NCBI RefSeq assembly: GCF_024448895.1
Contig: NZ_JAMOIC010000009.1
Location: 118,590-182,589, forward strand
Length of the DNA: 64,000 nt
Direction: 5' to 3'
Origin: Stutzerimonas stutzeri
GTDB taxonomy: Bacteria > Pseudomonadota > Gammaproteobacteria > Pseudomonadales > Pseudomonadaceae
Shown: one piece after another, positions 26,212 through 34,534 of the stretch
How the letters are laid out: every line of letters starts with the position of its first letter
Position numbering within the stretch: the first letter of the stretch is position 1
Notes under the pieces: generated by a model
Databases searched by the model: none
Told to the model about the DNA's origin: nothing
The model's input: the letters and a program-made list of their open reading frames with translations, nothing else
Position numbers and translations under genes: made by a program

Positions 26212-26517
26212 ATGGCCAACATCGGCACCTTCACCCCGTCCAAAGATGGCTTCACCGGCACTCTGCGCACCCTTACGCTTCAAGCGAAGGTCAACATCGT
26301 TCCAAACAACAAGAGCAGCGACAACGCTCCGGATTATCGAATCGTCGCAGCCGGCGGGCACGAGATCGGCGCCGCTTGGGAAAAGCTCAGCCAATCCGAT
26401 CGCCCCTACCTGTCGGTCAGCATAGATGACCCGGCACTGCCTGCTACCGTCTACGCTAACCTCATCGAGGGCGAGGACGGCAGCCACGCGCTAATCTGGA
26501 GCCGAAAAACCGAGTAG
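26212..26517 (+). CDS. DUF736 family protein
   Basis: 101 residues beginning MANIGTFTPSKDGFTGTLRTL with AGGHEIGAAWEKLSQSDRPYLSVSIDDP, a clear DUF736 match. The family is small, soluble and typical of conjugative elements and plasmids, of unknown function. AAAGGAG lies seven bases before the ATG. Its place just inside the tRNA scar supports a mobile origin for this region. Confidence 0.88.
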   Translation: MANIGTFTPSKDGFTGTLRTLTLQAKVNIVPNNKSSDNAPDYRIVAAGGHEIGAAWEKLSQSDRPYLSVSIDDPALPATVYANLIEGEDGSHALIWSRKTE

Positions 26518-26583
26518 CAGTCAACCGCGCCCTGTCACGACAGGGCGCATCTATAAATGCGGATTATTAGGTCTGTGATTCGC

Positions 26584-27489
26584 TCATTCCCGTTCCAGGT
26601 GCCGTGCATCAGAGCTGACCGCTTCCATGATTGATACCAGTTCTTCCAACAAGTCGGCGTGGTGTTGCTGCAGATAAGCCGCGATCGCATCATTGCGCAG
26701 GATTCGCAACAAATACCCCTTCGCGACCACCAAGATCAGCATGGTCTCACCCAGAGTGTCCTCGACCTGCTTGTAGTCGTGCTGAAGATTCTCCATCTCC
26801 CGTTCCATCCGCGCGATGTCGAGCGCGTTGTTCTCTGCAGACGGTTTTCGTTGCTTGTCGACCAGCATTTCCGGTCGAGTCGCTGCTAGCACCATCTGTG
26901 CGTAATTGAGCGTGAAGCAATTGGCCGAAATCATCATTTCGACCGTTTCGATCTGCCGCATCGGCTTCATCTTTCTCAATACGCGAAATATGTCCTGCGC
27001 GACCATTCTGACCTTCAGCATCTCAACGACTTCTGGTGCGATGCCTTCCAGCAAATTGCGTCTGTGGTGGATGCGCTCGACACTTACACCCAGTACTCGG
27101 GCAATCCGGGCCGGATCAATCCCTTTCTTCAGCGCTGCAAGAATCATCTTGTGTTCTTGAATGGGCGTTAACCGGTTGATCTGACGGTTATAAGTGAAGC
27201 CTTCATCGTCGGTTGATATCAGGCACAGCGCATCTACCCCACCGAGCTCCTTGAGCGCCTCCAACCTGAGGTGCCCATCAAGCAGAATGTAGGATGCGAC
27301 GCCTTGATCTAAAACCGGCTGAGGGTGAACGGCCAACGGCTCCACCACGCCGAGTTCTCGGATAGAGCTAAGAATGCAGGCGTACTTCTTGCTGCCCTGA
27401 ATACCCTTGTCCACCTGGCGCGTCGGCAGGATGCGATCCAAACCGATCGCCACAACCTGCTGCTCGAAGCCCTGCTTCACCTGTCTCAT
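26584..27489 (-). CDS. ParB/RepB-like protein (RepB C-terminal type)
   Basis: 301 residues. N-terminal ParB-like part: VAIGLDRILPTRQV, then LLDGHLRLEALKELGGVDALCLI in place of the ParB GERRxRA box, followed by an HTH (IDPARIARVLGVSVERIHHRRNLL). The C-terminal half (about 150-300) resembles the RepB plasmid-partition C-terminal domain, ending in a helical acidic tail. ATG at 27489 overlaps the previous stop (TGATG). Third gene of a recombinase-ParB-RepB operon with no ParA partner, so ordinary plasmid segregation is unlikely. Role unknown. Confidence 0.78.
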   Translation of the reverse strand: MRQVKQGFEQQVVAIGLDRILPTRQVDKGIQGSKKYACILSSIRELGVVEPLAVHPQPVLDQGVASYILLDGHLRLEALKELGGVDALCLISTDDEGFTYNRQINRLTPIQEHKMILAALKKGIDPARIARVLGVSVERIHHRRNLLEGIAPEVVEMLKVRMVAQDIFRVLRKMKPMRQIETVEMMISANCFTLNYAQMVLAATRPEMLVDKQRKPSAENNALDIARMEREMENLQHDYKQVEDTLGETMLILVVAKGYLLRILRNDAIAAYLQQHHADLLEELVSIMEAVSSDARHLERE

Positions 27490-28403
27490 CAGCAAGCCTC
27501 GCCATGGATACGATCAGCCAATGGTCGAGGCATATCCTGAATATCTTGATTGCGAAGCAGCGCGGCGAAATAGTCATCGGCCAGCAGTTTTCTCACGGCT
27601 GTGACGATGATCAGCAAGCGCTGCTCATTGATATCCGCCTTTTTGATCATCACCTTCTGGCGTCGGACTTCGGCCTGGTAGGTACTGAGTAGTTTTTGAG
27701 GCGTAGTAGGTCGATCCGTGTGCCCGTGCTGCCCATAGCGCTTACCAAGTGCGCTGCGCCTGTCGATCAGTCGTCGCACCTTGATCAGTTGCTCGCCCTT
27801 GAGCACGCCGGTCTCGTAAGCCTCAATCATCGCCTGCTGAATTTCGCCATCATCAGAACGGGCGATTTCCGCGGCGATTTTGATTGGCAGCCATCCCTTC
27901 TCTACCGCCGAGATCAGTCGCTCTTCTCCCTGGCGTAGCAACAGCAGGATGCAGCTGACATAGGTAGGATCCAGACTCGTCTTGGTCGCGATATCTTTAA
28001 TCGAGTAGCCCCGCTCCGACAGAATCTGAATGGACATCAGCAGGTCGCGATTGGAGTGTTTTCTGCGAGCGAGATTTTCAACCAGGCTGATCAGGAAGCG
28101 ATCCGCCTCGCTTGCGCTCACCACAATGCAAGGAATGCTCTCTTCTCCAAGTGCCTGGAACGCTTCGAGCCGCCCCTGCCCGCAGACGACCTCGAAGTGT
28201 TCACTGCCTGCAGTATCTTGGATGCAGGTCACCGTGATAGGCCGTTTGAGTCCTATTGTGGCGATGTTTTCCACCAGCTTGGCAAACACCTGCTTGTTGC
28301 GTACGCGAGGGTTGAGCACCCTGATTTGTTCCAGCGGGATAAGCCTTATGGTTGAGGCTCCGGAAATATGGAGCGGCTTCTTGGTCGATAAGTCGGTCGT
28401 CAC
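27489..28403 (-). CDS. ParB-family protein
   Basis: 304 residues. N-terminal ParB/Srx-like domain: IRLIPLEQIRVLNPRVRNK, FEVVCGQGRLEAFQALGEESIPCIVV (CGQGRLEA replaces GERRxRA), SLVENLARRKHSNRDL, then an HTH (YSIKDIATKTSLDPTYVSCIL). The C-terminal half is helical. GTG start at 28403 with AGGAGG upstream overlaps the recombinase stop. Similar in plan to the next gene, but the two differ throughout, so this is not a recent duplication. ParB-fold proteins bind CTP; whether this one does cannot be told. Confidence 0.8.
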   Translation of the reverse strand: MTTDLSTKKPLHISGASTIRLIPLEQIRVLNPRVRNKQVFAKLVENIATIGLKRPITVTCIQDTAGSEHFEVVCGQGRLEAFQALGEESIPCIVVSASEADRFLISLVENLARRKHSNRDLLMSIQILSERGYSIKDIATKTSLDPTYVSCILLLLRQGEERLISAVEKGWLPIKIAAEIARSDDGEIQQAMIEAYETGVLKGEQLIKVRRLIDRRSALGKRYGQHGHTDRPTTPQKLLSTYQAEVRRQKVMIKKADINEQRLLIIVTAVRKLLADDYFAALLRNQDIQDMPRPLADRIHGEAC

Positions 28404-29962
28404 GCTGCCCTCCTGTGCGCACTGCGGCGCGACAATTGCGCAATAATTTCCAGAGAATCGAACCGATAGATCTCTACGTCTGCGCGGTTGTTTTCGGCGA
28501 CTCGCAATTGGGAAGCGGTCATGTCGACTGTTGGAAGCACGTAATAATCAATCGCGCGTTCCTCACCTTCGCTCATGCGCACCGCAACCGTCAGATCAGG
28601 TCCCAGCCCCAGATCAAACCGAATCTTCCATCGTCTGGCCCCTGCAGACGTGAATTGACATCGACATAAAACAATAGAGAGCCGGATTTCCTGGTTGATT
28701 GCCAGCATCCCAGTATCGGGTTCGATATCAACACGCCCGCCAACCGCGCGAATCTGCTCAATCGTCTGCTGTAGAAGGTCAGGATGTAGCAGGCGCAACC
28801 GTCTATTGGCTTCCAGATACTGATAGTCCCGGCCAGGGGTGTAGCCGATCAGTGAATAGCAGCGCAGCAGACTGCCGAATCGGTATTTGTAAGCACTACT
28901 CGATGGGAAGCCCTCTGCCTCGTCAATAACGAGCCCTGACAAGCAACCGCAGCGCTCATGAATGATTTTGAGCAAGCGAAGCATTTCTTCATCCGGCATA
29001 CGATAAGAACGTGCATGAATGATTTCTTTCGCGGCCCTAAACTGCAGCTCGCTCACGATCGGTGGGTGGGTTCCATCGGCCCTCACCCAGTTCTCGGGGT
29101 CGTTTCTCGTCCGTGCTTGCTTGAGTTTGAAGGACGTACGATTCCACACGTTGTTGCCGATGTACTTTTCATTGATCAGCACCTGGTGAACAGCGCCACG
29201 TGTCCATGGCCGAGACCGATCGGTCAGAATGCCGCGAGCATTCAGCCGCTGAGCGATTTCGCCCTCGCTTCTGCCTTCGTCAACGAATAGGCGGTAGATT
29301 TGCTGGACGACGTCGACCTCCTCCTCTGGGCCGGGCACGAGTATCACTCGGTCAGTCTGAATGCTCTTGTGCTCGCCGAGAGCCAGATCGTATTTCGGAA
29401 CCCCGGACGCATCGACTAGGTGACGACGCAATCCGTATCCGGCCGGACCTCCCTGTCGATAACCCATTTCGATCAGTCGCGACTGTCCTGCGAAAACCTT
29501 TACCGAGAGTTCCCGGCTGTACTCTCCAGCCATCATTCGCTTAACGCTTTTGATGATATTGGAGACGGGAGAGCCGTCGTTGCTGAACTGCTCGGCGCAA
29601 TATTGAACCGAAACGCCCATCTGACGGCATCGGACCTCGTAGCTGGCGCTGATATCAGGGTCCTGAAATCGCCCCCAACGGCTGACGTCATAGACCAGTA
29701 TTGTCGTATAGCTTGCCTGCCCACTTTCAACGTCGTGGAATAGCTGCTTCAGGGCATCGCGGCCTTCGAGTAGAAGCCCGCTTTTGCCCGCGTCCGTGTA
29801 CACCCGCGTTATTTGCATGGCATGCGCGGCCGCGTAAAGCTTGATGGTGTCGAGCTGGTTTTCGGTTGAGTACTGCTGGTGTTCAGTCGACATCCGCACG
29901 TAGGCGGCTGCTAGCAACGGCCGGGGCATATCGCCTGCAGCGTCAACGGTGATAGTAGGCAT
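28400..29962 (-). CDS. Serine recombinase (resolvase/invertase N-terminus with Recombinase domain)
   Basis: About 520 residues. Catalytic domain (about 15-165) begins AAAYVRMSTEHQQYSTENQL, with YVRxS holding the nucleophilic serine, and includes YDVSRWGRFQD. The Recombinase domain (about 180-320) has GGPAGYGLRR and RPWTRGAVHQVLINEKYIGNNV. The zinc-ribbon region of large serine integrases is replaced by ERCGCLSGLVIDEAEGFPSS, without paired CxxC. ATG at 29962 is used; a TTG two codons upstream is also possible. It overlaps the ParB gene by GTGA. It could be the integrase/excisionase of this element, though tRNA-site integration is more often done by tyrosine recombinases. Confidence 0.88.
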   Translation of the reverse strand: MPTITVDAAGDMPRPLLAAAYVRMSTEHQQYSTENQLDTIKLYAAAHAMQITRVYTDAGKSGLLLEGRDALKQLFHDVESGQASYTTILVYDVSRWGRFQDPDISASYEVRCRQMGVSVQYCAEQFSNDGSPVSNIIKSVKRMMAGEYSRELSVKVFAGQSRLIEMGYRQGGPAGYGLRRHLVDASGVPKYDLALGEHKSIQTDRVILVPGPEEEVDVVQQIYRLFVDEGRSEGEIAQRLNARGILTDRSRPWTRGAVHQVLINEKYIGNNVWNRTSFKLKQARTRNDPENWVRADGTHPPIVSELQFRAAKEIIHARSYRMPDEEMLRLLKIIHERCGCLSGLVIDEAEGFPSSSAYKYRFGSLLRCYSLIGYTPGRDYQYLEANRRLRLLHPDLLQQTIEQIRAVGGRVDIEPDTGMLAINQEIRLSIVLCRCQFTSAGARRWKIRFDLGLGPDLTVAVRMSEGEERAIDYYVLPTVDMTASQLRVAENNRADVEIYRFDSLEIIAQLSRRSAHRRAA

Positions 29963-30072
29963 CGACAACTCGCTCCCGACAGGATCATCGTCTCGATGAC
30001 GGCATAGGTATTTGTTCAGTCGCCTCGAGCCGTCTTTAGCTTTCGAAACGATAGAAGACCGAGGGCGGAAAA

Positions 30073-30429
30073 ATGAGTACGAAAACGGGCAAAGTTTTTC
30101 TGAATCATGAGCAGTACGCGGTGGACATCGCGACAGCGCTACGACAAGAGCTTGGCAGCACTCACCAGGCCGCCAAGACCTTAATGCGATGGACTAATGC
30201 AAACGAGCGGACCGTAAAGAATTGGATGGCGGGCGCAAGTGGGCCCCGTGGAGAACATCTGATCGCACTGATCAAACATTCGGACGTCGCTCTGGCGGCA
30301 ACCCTTGCAATGGCCGACCGCCCCTTCGCAGGAACAGTTCTAGAGCTACCGCTGCTGCGAAGAAAGTTGCAGGCGGCCGTGGAAGGTATCGATGCCTTTC
30401 TTTATCTGGGTGGCGTGCAGGTGCGATGA
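30073..30429 (+). CDS. Small helix-turn-helix protein divergent from the recombinase operon
   Basis: 118 residues with an HTH-like stretch (STHQAAKTLMRWTNANERTV, KNWMAGASGPRGEHLIAL) reminiscent of phage or plasmid repressors. The ATG has a GGCGGA ribosome site. It starts 110 bases from the divergent recombinase gene across a spacer holding TCATCG-TCT-CGATGA (29985-29999), a possible operator. A regulatory role over the recombinase operon is inferred from position. Confidence 0.7.
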   Translation: MSTKTGKVFLNHEQYAVDIATALRQELGSTHQAAKTLMRWTNANERTVKNWMAGASGPRGEHLIALIKHSDVALAATLAMADRPFAGTVLELPLLRRKLQAAVEGIDAFLYLGGVQVR

Positions 30430-30562: not shown

Positions 30563-30808
30563 GTGATAACGAGTCGTCAATCCTTGGCCGCACGCGTAGA
30601 ACTTCAGCGCGCATTTTCGCCCCTTGCATGCAGTTATCTCCACGAACGGTCGAGCGTTCGACTGCGAGTTTATGAGCGTGACACTGGCCAGACGCAACTC
30701 ATCGTGGCGGGAATACCGGTATCACAAGTTGCAACGAGCCAAGGTTTGGCGAAGCTGATACGGGAGCTGCGGGATGAGCTCGATGGATCAACATTCAGGC
30801 GTAGCTGA
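30563..30808 (+). CDS. DUF1652 family protein
   Basis: 81 residues ending QVATSQGLAKLIRELRDELDG, the typical DUF1652 end, with the SVRLRVYERDTGQ strand before it. The family is small, largely restricted to pseudomonads, and has no known function. GAGG lies upstream of the start. Single gene. Confidence 0.8.
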   Translation: MITSRQSLAARVELQRAFSPLACSYLHERSSVRLRVYERDTGQTQLIVAGIPVSQVATSQGLAKLIRELRDELDGSTFRRS

Positions 30809-30917: not shown

Positions 30918-33900
30918 TCACTGAAAATCACGGCTGCGAACATCCAAGCCAGTGAGCAGGTGGGTCAGGTTACGCATCCTACCGGCGATAATGTGCCGCA
31001 CTCCGCTTTGATACTCCAGGCGTCCGTTGACCTGCATAAGCTGAGACTCCAGAAGTTCGCGCCGCTGACGCTCGCCGAGGTCGGCCCAGAACACGACGTT
31101 CATCATCCCGTGCTCGTCTTCCAAGGTTACAAAGATCACGCCGCTTGCCGTTGAGGGTCTCTGCCTGCCCGTCACGAGCCCCGCCACCGCGATATGACGG
31201 CCATGCTCGACACCGGCCAAATCACTCGAACTCTTGCAGCCCATTGATCGCAAAGTCTCCCGCAACAGGGACAGCGGGTGCGGGCCGAGGGTAGTACCTA
31301 GCGTTTCGTAATCGGTGTACAGATTCTCGGCTACGGAGGGTGCAGGCAACGCAAAATCGGCCTCCTCTTGACGCTCGGCTGCTGCGAACAAGGGCAGTTG
31401 CGGTTCGATACCGGCCACGCTCCATCTGGCCTGATGACGGTGCCCTGCGAGGCCTTGTAGTGCGCCTGCGTCGGCCAGCTGTGCACGAGCGCGGTTATCC
31501 AGTTTTGCCCGCACGCAAAGATCTGCAGTATCCCGGAAGCCCCTGCCTGCCCTGGCCGCCTCGATACGGCGCGCATCCTCTTCTCGAAACCCACGAATCA
31601 TCCGCAGCCCCAGGCGTATGGCCGGCTGTTCGCCCTCGTCTGGCTCAAGCGTGCAATCCCAGTCCGAGTGGAGTACATCAGCGGCGCGCGTCGAAATCCG
31701 GTGCCGGCGGGCGTCCTGAAGGATTTGATCCGGGCTGTAGAAACCCATGGGCCAGCTATTGATCAAGGCGCAAGCGAAGGCTGCCGGCTCGTGGCACTTG
31801 AGCCAGCAGCTGGCATAGGTCAACAGCGCAAAGCTTGCGGCGTGCGATTCGGGAAAACCGTAGCTGCCAAAACCCTTGATCTGCTCGAACACCTTTTCGG
31901 CGAATTCGACCGGGTAGCCGCGTGCGAGCATGCCCTCCATCAGTCGCTTCTGGTGCGGCTCAAGCCCACCGTGGCGCTTCCAGGCGGCCATGGAGCGGCG
32001 CAGCTGATCGGCCTCCCCCGCACTGTAGCCTGCTGCGACGATGGCCAGCCTCATCACCTGCTCCTGAAACAGCGGCACGCCCAGAGTTCGCTCGAACACC
32101 TCCTTGAGGTCCTCGGATGGATAGACAACCGGTTCCTCACCGTTTCGACGCCTCAAATAGGGATGAACCATGTCACCAACGATGGGGCCCGGCCGTACGA
32201 TCGCCACTTCGATGACCAAATCGTAAAAGGTCTTGGGTCTGAGCCTCGGCAACATGGCCATCTGAGCTCTGGACTCGATCTGAAACACCCCAACCGTGTC
32301 GGCCCGGCTGATCATGCGGTAGGTAGCTGCATCCTCGGCCGGAATGGTCGCAAGCGTCAGATCGCGCCGATCGTAGCGGCGCAGCAAATCGAGCGTTCGG
32401 CGTATGGCAGTCAGCATCCCGAGCGCGAGCACATCAACCTTCAGCAGGCCAACGGCATCCAGATCATCCTTGTCCCATTGGATGATCGTGCGATCGGGCA
32501 TGGCGGCATTTTCAACCGGCACCAAGGTATCTAACGGCTGTTCAGAAATGACGAACCCGCCCGGGTGCTGCGACAGGTGCCGTGGAAAACCAATCAGCTC
32601 GTCAGTAAGGACCAGTACCCGGTGAAGGATCGGGCTCTCCGGATCGAAGCCCGCCTCGACTAGACGCTCGACCGGTGGCAGCCGATCCGTCCAGCGGCCA
32701 CCACAATCGGCCAGCATCTTGACCTGATCAGGCGGCATGCCAAGCGCCTTGGCCACATCGCGGACCGCGCCGGCAAAATGGTAGGTGCTGGCCACAGCGG
32801 TCAATGCAGCACGCGCGCGTCCGTAGCGCTGGTAGATGTACTGGATGACTTCCTCGCGTCGCTCGTGTTCGAAATCGACGTCGATATCCGGCGGCTCGTT
32901 ACGCTCTCGCGATATGAAGCGTTCAAACAGCATGCTCATGCGGGACGGATCCAGCTCGGTAATACCCAGGGCAAAACACACCGCCGAGTTGGCTGCCGAA
33001 CCGCGTCCCTGGCAAAGAATCGATCGCCCACGAGCGAAATGAACAATGTCCCTGACCGTAAGAAAGTAGCTCTCATAGCCAAGCTCAGCGATCAGCTCCA
33101 GTTCGTTTTCAAGCTGAGCACGGGCCTTTTCCGGGATACCTTCGGGCCACCGCCAACGCGCGCCCTCCTCCGTCAGTTGCCGCAACCAGGCCGTAGGTGT
33201 GGTGTTTGCCGGAACGACTTCGTGAGGATACTGATAGCGCAGCTCACCAAGATCGAATGTACAGCGTCTGGCAATGCGCAGTGACTCTATAAGCGGTTCG
33301 GCTGGGTATAGCTCGGCAAGTGCGGCGACTGGCCGAAGGTGGCGCTCACCGTTCGGATAAAGGTAGTGACCCGCTTCGGCTACAGGGACATGGTGACGGA
33401 TCGCTGTGATGGTGTCCTGCAGCGCACGCCTACCCCTGGCATGCATATGCACGTCTCCCGTAGCGACCAGCGCGATGCCGAGCTCATGCGCAACCGCTCC
33501 GAGCTGCGCCAGACGTGAGGCATCGTTTGGCCCCCGGTGAAGCTCGGCGGCCAGCCAGACCCGATCGGGAAACCGCTCAAGAAGCCATCGACCCTGTGCT
33601 GGGACTACCTCAACGGCCGGCACCCATAATGCAAGTAGCCCTTCAAGCGGTGCGGTGAGGTCGTCCGGTTCGAGCCTGTAATGACCCTTCTCCGAACGCC
33701 GACGCGCTAGCGTGATGAGTCGGCACAGTGCCTGGTATCCCGCCAGGTTCTCAACCAGCAGGACGATTTTGGGTCCACCTTCCAAGGTGATCTCACTGCC
33801 GATGATCAATGGCAGCCCTACGGCTTTGGATGCCTGCCAGGCCCTGACGATACCCGCCAGGGTGCATTCATCGGTGATTGCCAAGGCTGCATAGCCGTGA

Positions 33901-34016
33901 ATCTTGGCTCGTTCGAACAGTTCGCGCGCACTGGACGCGCCTCGCTGGAAACTGAAGTTCGATAAACAGTGAAGCTCGGCGTAGCCGGGCGAAGCCGCTG
34001 CGATAGAAGAAACCAT
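30918..34016 (-). CDS. dnaE2: Error-prone DNA polymerase DnaE2
   Basis: 1032-residue C-family polymerase for translesion synthesis. PHP domain at the N-terminus ([26 protein letters not shown]), polymerase core with [19 protein letters not shown] and [29 protein letters not shown] (acidic catalytic residues), [12 protein letters not shown], and a C-terminal OB fold. ATG at 34016 matches the usual DnaE2 start; the 56 extra codons upstream are not family-like. DnaE2 usually works with ImuA and ImuB; neither is in this window. A consensus LexA box lies 15-34 bases upstream. Confidence 0.93.
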
Positions 34017-34030
34017 GGAAGGCAACACGA

Positions 34031-34050
34031 TACTGTATGAATAAACAGTA
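34031..34050. promoter_or_regulatory. LexA (SOS) box between dnaE2 and the SRAP-like gene
   Basis: TACTGTATGAATAAACAGTA: CTGT-N8-ACAG with the flanking TA and TA of the gamma-proteobacterial consensus. It lies in the 95-base divergent interval and could control both genes. Confidence 0.85.
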
Positions 34051-34111
34051 GATCGAATTTGGATATCGCAGGTCAATTGAAAAACGAGGTGTGCGACGGT
34101 CGGAGGAGCGC

Positions 34112-34534
34112 ATGTGCGGAGGAATCGAAGCGCGGGATGCCGAGAAGAGCTACAAGGTGTATTTCCCCTCACCCAAGGCGGCAATCCCGGTTTTGGGCGA
34201 AGGCGGTGAGGATCTCGGCTGGGTACGCTGGGGGCGGCGCAAGGGCGAGCCAGGCGCGAGCCCGCAGGGCGGATGGGCGAAGCTCGAAACCATCGAGCGC
34301 GGCGGATGGGAGCGCTACAACCCGCAGCGTGTCCACGGCCTGGTACATCGTTTCATGGAAAAGGATGCCGAGCGGGTATCGCACTGGTTCGACGTTGAGC
34401 CAGGTTACGCCTTGCAGTGCTTGCTCGTAGGCCAAGGAGATGATCGCAGGCTCTATGTTGTGACGAGCTCCCCTTCCCCCGAATACGCCTGGCTCCATGA
34501 TCGCTGGCCGCTGGTCACCCCTATCCCCCAATGA
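34112..34534 (+). CDS. Compact SRAP/HMCES-like protein
   Basis: 140 residues starting MCGG; Met removal would expose Cys2, the residue with which SRAP proteins (YedK/HMCES) cross-link abasic sites. HDRWPLV near the C-terminus resembles the HDRMPVIL of SRAP with its catalytic His. The central NARxET region reads WAKLET and the FYEW region reads WFDV, so the conserved Asn and Glu are changed, and the protein is much shorter than usual (about 220). CGGAGGAG precedes the ATG. Shared LexA-box interval with dnaE2 supports an SOS repair role. It may be a distinct SRAP branch; not verified. Confidence 0.65.

Follow-up and report, generated by a model that had tools for sequence, protein, structure and literature searches.

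A near-obligate gene block of a serine recombinase and two ParB-fold proteins, probably for moving or keeping genomic islands

A large serine recombinase (REC) and two ParB-fold proteins (PB1 and PB2) are encoded in a near-obligate gene block that is inherited as one unit in many bacteria. In marine relatives of the Stutzerimonas stutzeri copy, one end of a mobile island is often formed by this trio, and some of these islands are rich in anti-virus genes. The trio thus probably acts as a little-studied machinery by which such islands are moved or kept. For large serine recombinases, which also serve as genome-engineering tools, a near-obligate ParB pair would represent a new mode of control.

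Gene layout in Stutzerimonas stutzeri

The block lies in a 64,000-nucleotide stretch of S. stutzeri DNA, here called the window, with the following features:

28400..29968, minus strand: REC, large serine recombinase, 522 aa
27489..28403, minus strand: PB1, ParB_N and RepB protein, 304 aa
26584..27495, minus strand: PB2, RepB-family ParB-fold protein, 303 aa from the first start
30073..30429, plus strand: divergent HTH-like gene, 118 aa, in phrog_23106 (function unknown) at 1.5e-7
30563..30808, plus strand: DUF1652 gene (PF07865)
26527..26548: 22-bp inverted repeat GCGCCCTGTCACGACAGGGCGC between the convergent PB2 and DUF736 genes, from sequence reading and an inverted-repeat scan
26212..26517, plus strand: DUF736 gene (PF05284), convergent neighbour

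The original prediction described three overlapping genes and a divergent HTH gene, and both are found. On the minus strand, the overlap is 4 bases between REC and PB1, and 1 base between PB1 and PB2 when PB2 starts at an alternative ATG two codons in. The divergent HTH-like protein matches no Pfam family, and a comparable divergent neighbour is seen at many Pseudomonas, Rhodobacteraceae and Burkholderiales loci; it is likely a repressor of the trio. A conserved attP was sought between this gene and REC, where conservation is limited to the HTH leader.

The same genome holds a second trio copy in different surroundings, and similarity between the two loci stops near the 3' end of the DUF1652 gene. 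This gene is present in 4 of 88 sequences (the window, L005, L006 and the C39 copy) and belongs to the block only in Stutzerimonas-type copies. The DUF736 gene is outside the conserved block and is absent beside the C39 copy. Judged from its sequence, GCGCCCTGTCACGACAGGGCGC is a candidate terminator or binding site.

Conservation and linkage of the trio

The order REC-PB1-PB2 recurs well beyond this strain and beyond chance: the 88 gene-called sequences contain 64 contiguous runs, and both junctions lie between -11 and +1 bases in 54 of these runs. The trio occurs in many bacteria, and no published description of it was found in the open-licence literature, preprints excluded; it is thus neither confined to the strain nor, within that literature, a known element.

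The linkage is seen in surveys of 398 Pseudomonadota genomes, in which the best candidates of each genome (up to three for REC and five for PB1/PB2) were scored, so that the counts are lower bounds. PB1 adjoins all 24 high-scoring RECs, PB2 also adjoins 22 of the 24, and REC lies upstream of 31 of 33 PB2 matches. The divergence of REC, PB1 and PB2 is matched (Mantel r 0.912, 0.936 and 0.975, 29 loci), although shared host descent alone would also give a correlation. Among RECs at 550-700 bits, five of eight have a RepB-like match but no PB1, and all ten at 500-550 bits have neither, so both ParBs are not required across the wider REC family. In 55 genomes a match to the PB1 profile at 1e-15 occurs without REC; most of these matches are weak and they are likely other ParB proteins.

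REC resembles large serine integrases

REC contains a Resolvase domain (aa 20-167, PF00239) and a Recombinase domain (aa 215-318, PF07508), and both families match all 40 REC members. S27, D94, R97 and R100, the nucleophilic Ser and the conserved Asp/Arg of the catalytic domain, are invariant across the 40; with its catalytic residues intact, REC is predicted to be active. The best Foldseek matches are serine integrases, namely 9dxd, Bxb1, a Streptomyces phage enzyme and phiC31; 9dxd is the SPbeta enzyme, which also matches REC at the profile level. The best match covers about 325 columns, with TM at most 0.46 by query length.

Typical large serine recombinases carry a zinc ribbon with a coiled coil. 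The C-terminal domain of REC spans aa ~325-522 and has no such ribbon: zinc-ribbon families match 0 of 40 members, and the C-terminal half lacks conserved Cys pairs. A zinc ribbon is therefore rejected for REC; of the predicted serine recombinase with a degenerate zinc ribbon, the recombinase is confirmed and the ribbon is not. HNH_repeat (PF18780) is matched in 1 of 40 members, at 5.8e-4.

The large serine integrases SPbeta YokA, Bxb1 and phiC31 share the catalytic and Recombinase domains of REC by Pfam, profile and fold, but unlike them REC has no zinc ribbon and its C-terminal ~200 residues have no clear solved match. REC is also adjoined by ParB-fold genes, while PDB entries such as 9dxd show an RDF instead. 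The SCCmec ccr modules likewise place a serine recombinase within a cargo island, and CcrB is a distant profile match of REC (65.8 bits, against a cut-off of 900). However, the trio differs from these modules by its tRNA-Ser end and its ParB partners.

PB1 and PB2 are altered ParB-fold proteins

ParB-fold proteins are sliding clamps in chromosome and plasmid partition. PB1 matches ParB_N (PF02195) and RepB (PF07506), and its solved relatives are Spo0J, Noc, ParB and KorB. PB2 matches RepB (PF07506), as do all 38 PB2 members, and its model (pLDDT 79) has Foldseek matches to Noc, KorB and ParB. Both proteins share the ParB fold, the helical HTH region and the RepB family with ParB, RepB, KorB and Noc. 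In contrast to these, the GERR nucleotide-binding box is replaced, by CGxGR in PB1 (34/34) and by DGHxR in PB2 (32/38), and two relatives are encoded with one recombinase. GERR itself occurs in 0 of 34 PB1 and 0 of 38 PB2, which agrees with the predicted pair of ParB-fold proteins with altered GERR boxes. The second boxes are ENxARR in PB1 and QEHxM in PB2. PB1 falls in phrog_3951 (1.1e-38) and PB2 in phrog_31451 (5.1e-50), both of unknown function; these are single-protein clusters and give no description of the three-gene block.

Island ends at tRNA-Ser in most Rhodobacteraceae-type loci

The Rhodobacteraceae-type group is labelled from record titles; one of its records is titled Halothiobacillus, one is an uncultured alphaproteobacterium or otherwise vaguely titled, and L091 and L092 are viral-collection sequences. 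The block ends at TGGCGGAG, a tRNA-Ser 3'-end motif, in 23 of the 27 loci with that side present, against a chance expectation of 0.08 for each locus if the GC content is taken as 62%. Extended right flanks were scanned in 13 sequences, and seven contain tRNA-Ser. Four of the seven count as complete islands (L061, L069, L073 and L044), since in L046 and L078 the tRNA-Ser keeps its apparent native downstream sequence and in L067 the left end was not found. No tRNA-Ser is present in the 80-kb stretch around L050.

The complete islands are 20-43 kb long and end at tRNA-Ser(GGA) with an end repeat of 7-8 bases. Element borders are thereby mapped at both ends of four Rhodobacteraceae islands; borders were also sought for the window copy and none was found, its flanking genes lying scattered in relatives. 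L061 and L073 have both end types in common and differ in cargo and size. An empty tRNA-Ser site for the Ruegeria island is seen in G072, one of four other genomes of the genus searched. In the other three, different sequence abuts this tRNA-Ser, which may therefore also be a target of other elements.

Tyrosine-integrase islands inserted at tRNA genes likewise have a short direct repeat where the tRNA gene ends 3', but three of the four complete trio islands (L061, L069 and L073) have no match to PF00589 at E<=1. In L061, REC is the only PF00239 match and the sole site-specific recombinase, while L069 and L073 contain a second serine recombinase. L044 is the weakest of the four; here, REC is split into two ORFs, and the island contains an integrase fragment that scores below threshold.

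Proposed role of the trio

The adjacency (24/24 and 22/24), the matched divergence and, in Rhodobacteraceae, the placement at island ends support the idea of a ParB-recombinase module. Of the predicted recombination or element-maintenance module with ParB-like proteins, this much is upheld, while a new kind of transposition is not borne out.

We suggest that the trio carries out the integration and excision of a family of genomic islands, with the ParB-fold pair serving REC, a reading to which we give an even chance. REC would be the DNA-joining enzyme acting on the island ends, and PB1 and PB2, from overlapping genes, would be its dedicated accessory factors. The two proteins would most likely load at a nearby site and set when, and in which direction, REC acts; alternatively, they may protect the excised island circle. 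The divergent HTH-like protein would repress the block. In Rhodobacteraceae, the islands adjoin tRNA-Ser(GGA) at its 3' end and can carry defence genes, and the Stutzerimonas copy may work in the same way at another site. If true, the trio would be a probable vehicle of tRNA-Ser defence islands in marine bacteria, and would offer one testable explanation for the movement of islands that lack a tyrosine integrase. Against an integration module, an end repeat of 7-8 bases would suit a tyrosine integrase equally well.

Copies on plasmids and in other Pseudomonadota

No tRNA-Ser end is found at the trio in eight further Pseudomonadota neighbourhoods, two of which contain a tRNA-Ser farther off, at 13 kb (G217) and 30 kb (G334); tRNA-Ser is thus ruled out as a universal target. 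No left boundary is conserved across the Pseudomonas copies. Among the matches listed, the P. sichuanensis group has a common ~4.7-kb unit, bounded by TATCGACCC on one side and by the complement of this sequence on the other. We do not adopt the reading of a small Pseudomonas transposon with terminal repeats, because we take TATCGACCC-like sequences to be repeats scattered through Pseudomonas and the other Pseudomonas copies show no common end.

DNA-level matches to parts of the block occur in 53 plasmid records, none over 80% of the query. Among the 20 plasmid matches listed, the matching stretch covers REC together with PB1 and PB2 in three (H1-H3). A fourth, H4, is a 30-kb Paraburkholderia plasmid with all three genes by annotation, a tyrosine integrase and no replicon typed. 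Tyrosine integrases also adjoin the C39 copy, occur on p12939-PER and, by sequence reading, lie beside L005; they could move those islands instead.

Together with the RepB/ParB homology of PB1 and PB2, the plasmid copies and the integrases at C39 and on p12939-PER are consistent with a different role as a maintenance module and passenger, in which REC resolves multimers, the ParBs segregate plasmids or excised islands and other integrases do the moving. We regard this as a tentative possibility, somewhat unlikely overall. ParABS partition systems have a ParA ATPase gene next to ParB; of the 17 window proteins scanned with Pfam, none matches a ParA or replication-protein family, and the annotated plasmid stretches name no ParA in their gene tables, which are incomplete. 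Moreover, the copies L023, L061 and L078 sit on contigs of 3.8-4.8 Mb and are therefore chromosomal, and three complete islands have no tyrosine-integrase match.

Defence cargo and the inverted repeat beside PB2

The three islands without a tyrosine-integrase match carry defence genes, and defence neighbours are also found at some Verrucomicrobia and other loci. In Pseudomonas and Burkholderiales, 0 of 10 scanned neighbourhoods match a defence family proper, the one match being to a TnsB transposase profile; defence linkage as a general feature of the trio is not supported there. The Pseudomonas copies, the window copy among them, thus have little defence cargo as well as no tRNA-Ser end.

About 215 bases 3' of PB2, an inverted repeat is found in 28 of 32 Rhodobacteraceae-type loci (at most 2 mismatches). 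In an alignment of 31 loci, similarity is lost at its outer edge in most, and the cargo differs beyond. The repeat could be a recombination site that takes up defence cassettes, in part like the attI of an integron or an SCC att site. In L056, a second copy (nhmmer E 2e-8) lies between a restriction-type cassette and a WYL-led block, and a right half in L058 has the same kind of placement; in L091 and L071 it is the first site that directly precedes such a block. However, the copy in L056 is the single clear duplicate in the loci and islands that were scanned, and the L058 repeat extends over 212 bases at 86%, which homologous recombination could have produced. Several pairs and triples of loci also share the same DNA past the repeat, and outside the clade there is only a different repeat, at a similar offset, in one set of closely similar Pseudomonas copies. 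A cassette site is therefore unlikely in our judgement. Decidedly unlikely is a wider version, a serine-recombinase counterpart of the integron, in which REC would join islands at a fixed chromosomal site and PB1 and PB2, as nucleotide-switched ParB-type clamps loaded on the PB2-side repeat, would control its direction and the capture of cargo; this repeat would also be the acceptor of new defence cassettes.

That the trio is itself a defence or regulatory system and not a mobility module is very improbable: defence genes lie nearby in Rhodobacteraceae and the other loci named above, and passages of PMC10853773 propose ParB-superfamily proteins as effectors in other conflict systems, but the scanned Pseudomonas and Burkholderiales neighbourhoods have no match to a defence family proper, PADLOC matches none of REC, PB2 and the HTH protein and hits PB1 only weakly, with methyltransferase-like and PD-Lambda-5 models, and the catalytic residues of REC are invariant.

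Gene content of the recombinase-ParB block

The block and its neighbour consist of the following genes:

28400-29968, minus strand: REC, large serine recombinase (Pfam Resolvase + Recombinase)
27489-28403, minus strand: PB1, RepB-type ParB-fold protein (Pfam ParB_N + RepB)
26584-27495, minus strand: PB2, RepB-type ParB-fold protein (Pfam RepB)
30073-30429, divergent from REC: HTH-like gene

As in the original prediction, the REC, PB1 and PB2 ORFs are consecutive, REC overlapping PB1 by 4 bases and PB1 overlapping PB2 by 1, and the HTH-like ORF beside them points away from REC. The catalytic residues S27, D94, R97 and R100 of REC are kept in 40/40 members. The predicted model of REC (pLDDT 79.9, pTM 0.49) has serine integrases as structural matches, the best over ~325 columns, with modest TM-scores (<=0.46 by query length). 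The degenerate zinc ribbon that had been predicted is absent from the C-terminal part of REC in the 40 members, one of which matches a homing-endonuclease-associated repeat (5.8e-4).

PB1 is related to PB2 through its N-terminal part (hhalign probability 97.9 over 141 columns). Both proteins resemble Noc, Spo0J, KorB and ParB, and PB2 has a weak additional resemblance to free serine kinase. Their GERR boxes are indeed altered, to CGxGR in PB1 (34/34) and DGHxR in PB2 (32/38), with GERR itself in none. Individually, PB1 and PB2 are already catalogued as PHROG families of unknown function, and single trio proteins carry GenBank names such as 'plasmid partitioning protein RepB C-terminal domain-containing protein'. 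The trio might have been a known element; no description of it was found in the literature searched.

Distribution and linkage

Of 90 matches to PB2, the best 80 were kept and resolve into 77 loci, spread over Pseudomonas, Burkholderiales, Pasteurellaceae, Rhodobacteraceae, Verrucomicrobia, a planctomycete and others. The gene order recurs across many taxa: our gene calling on 88 sequences found 64 contiguous REC-PB1-PB2 runs, the other loci being broken, ended by a contig edge or missed in gene calling, and in 54 of the 64 both junctions lie between -11 and +1 bases. A 7.5 kb faecal scaffold carries all three genes and, by our reading, a divergent HTH-like ORF. Partial DNA-level matches to the block occur in 53 plasmid records, none covering >80% of the query. 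The block is accessory, since PB2 is present in just 4/56 genomes of the genus (own one counted), one of the four truncated. Two diverged blocks lie close together in L024 and L025 (Paraburkholderia, Burkholderia). A circular 30 kb Paraburkholderia plasmid (NZ_CP134199.1, L086), possibly an excised island, combines the trio with a tyrosine integrase and type I restriction genes, with no replicon typed.

The linkage was surveyed in 398 evenly drawn Pseudomonadota genomes, scoring at most 3 to 5 candidates per genome. REC genes above 700 bits (n=24) have PB1 adjacent in 24/24 and PB2 in 22/24, the two misses being one truncated PB1 and one contig end. Between 550 and 700 bits (n=8), a PB2-profile match is found in 8/8 and PB1 in 3/8; below 500 bits (n=8, mostly partial), both are found in 1/8. 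REC is upstream of the PB2 match in 31/33. Between-locus distances of the trio proteins correlate (r 0.912, 0.936 and 0.975; 29 loci; 0/2000 permutations as high), part of which could be explained by the hosts' shared descent alone. Among RECs of 500-550 bits, 0/10 have a PB1 or PB2 match (G113, G278, G295, G412, G442; <=3 matches per genome; two neighbourhoods read), and this subfamily is a useful control for the ParB contribution. In four genomes (G129, G149, G249, G352; neighbourhoods read in three), REC is followed by a single RepB-like protein whose match to the PB2 profile is confined to the C-terminal portion.

Islands at tRNA-Ser in Rhodobacteraceae

The conserved block is best read as a candidate island mobility module, with a proposed mechanism. 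In Rhodobacteraceae, 27 loci have the HTH side of the block available, and in 23 of them this side gives way to foreign DNA at TGGCGGAG, a match to the 3' end of tRNA-Ser; the L058 match in this count looks like chance, and L050 has the motif though missed by the rule. The chance expectation is 0.08 per locus, assuming 62% GC. In R. pomeroyi SZCCDBG043, a 20.0-kb stretch has the block at its start and tRNA-Ser(GGA) at its end. Of four other genus genomes searched, one has both flanks joined as an empty site (33 bases of left flank plus tRNA, 88%), and in three a different sequence abuts the same tRNA-Ser.

Three further complete islands measure 25.0, 42.8 and 19.6 kb. Within the L061, L069 and L073 islands there is no tyrosine-integrase match at E<=1; REC is the sole serine recombinase of L061, while L069 and L073 have one additional serine recombinase each. 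In the L044 island REC is split, and a sub-threshold integrase fragment is present. Of the other Pseudomonadota genomes, G217 has a tRNA-Ser at a distance of 13 kb from its trio and G334 one at 30 kb. A ParD/ParE-like toxin-antitoxin pair (our labels) adjoins the HTH gene in many Rhodobacteraceae copies (L041, L043, L044, L055, L063, L069, L071, L081 and others); the ParE-like cluster occurs in 13/88 sequences.

Cargo and its junction

Proteins selected from the larger ORFs of the L061, L069 and L073 islands were scanned against PADLOC families (E<=1e-5). Raw counts were 7/8 proteins in L073 (DISARM, type I restriction and others), 4/4 in L061 (TmtA, MkoA, WYL, PDC-S36) and 6/7 in L069 (ZacB, ZacC, DndD-like, DndH-like, type I methyltransferase). 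Pseudomonas and Burkholderiales neighbours match in 1/10, a TnsB transposase profile, and a mixed set in 7/10 (raw count; 5/8 from other taxa, 2/2 Rhodobacteraceae). In a Verrucomicrobia MAG, a 1056-aa protein after the trio (L034:11260-14430) matches a Cas9 profile (2.8e-39).

An inverted repeat, GGCGTGYCG...CGGCACGCC, lies ~215 bases past PB2 in 28/32 Rhodobacteraceae-type loci. The DNA beyond it comprises many different sequences, several common to two or three loci. A second copy, L056:15495-15550, has a restriction-type cassette on one side and a WYL-led block on the other; at L058:14535 the right half of the repeat lies between two such units, and in L091 and L071 the first site directly precedes a WYL-led block. 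These arrangements suit cassette insertion at the repeat. Homologous recombination is also allowed as the source of the L058 arrangement because of a 212-base repeat at 86% there.

The window copy

Mapping of element borders succeeded for island ends in Rhodobacteraceae but gave no clear borders for the window copy, whose neighbour genes are dispersed among relatives; a tRNA search across the 64-kb window found none. The predicted mobility or maintenance module is best read as an island mobility module, which for the window copy we infer. A second trio copy in the same genome (contig C39; REC 88%, PB2 89% identical) has a tyrosine integrase adjoining its PB2. DNA similarity between the two copies spans the trio, the HTH-like gene and the DUF1652 gene (30563..30808, plus strand), ending on both sides. 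A DnaE-type polymerase gene adjoins the Stutzerimonas copy or remnant in the window (30918-34184) and in L035, and umuDC-like genes (identity by our reading) adjoin that in L082.
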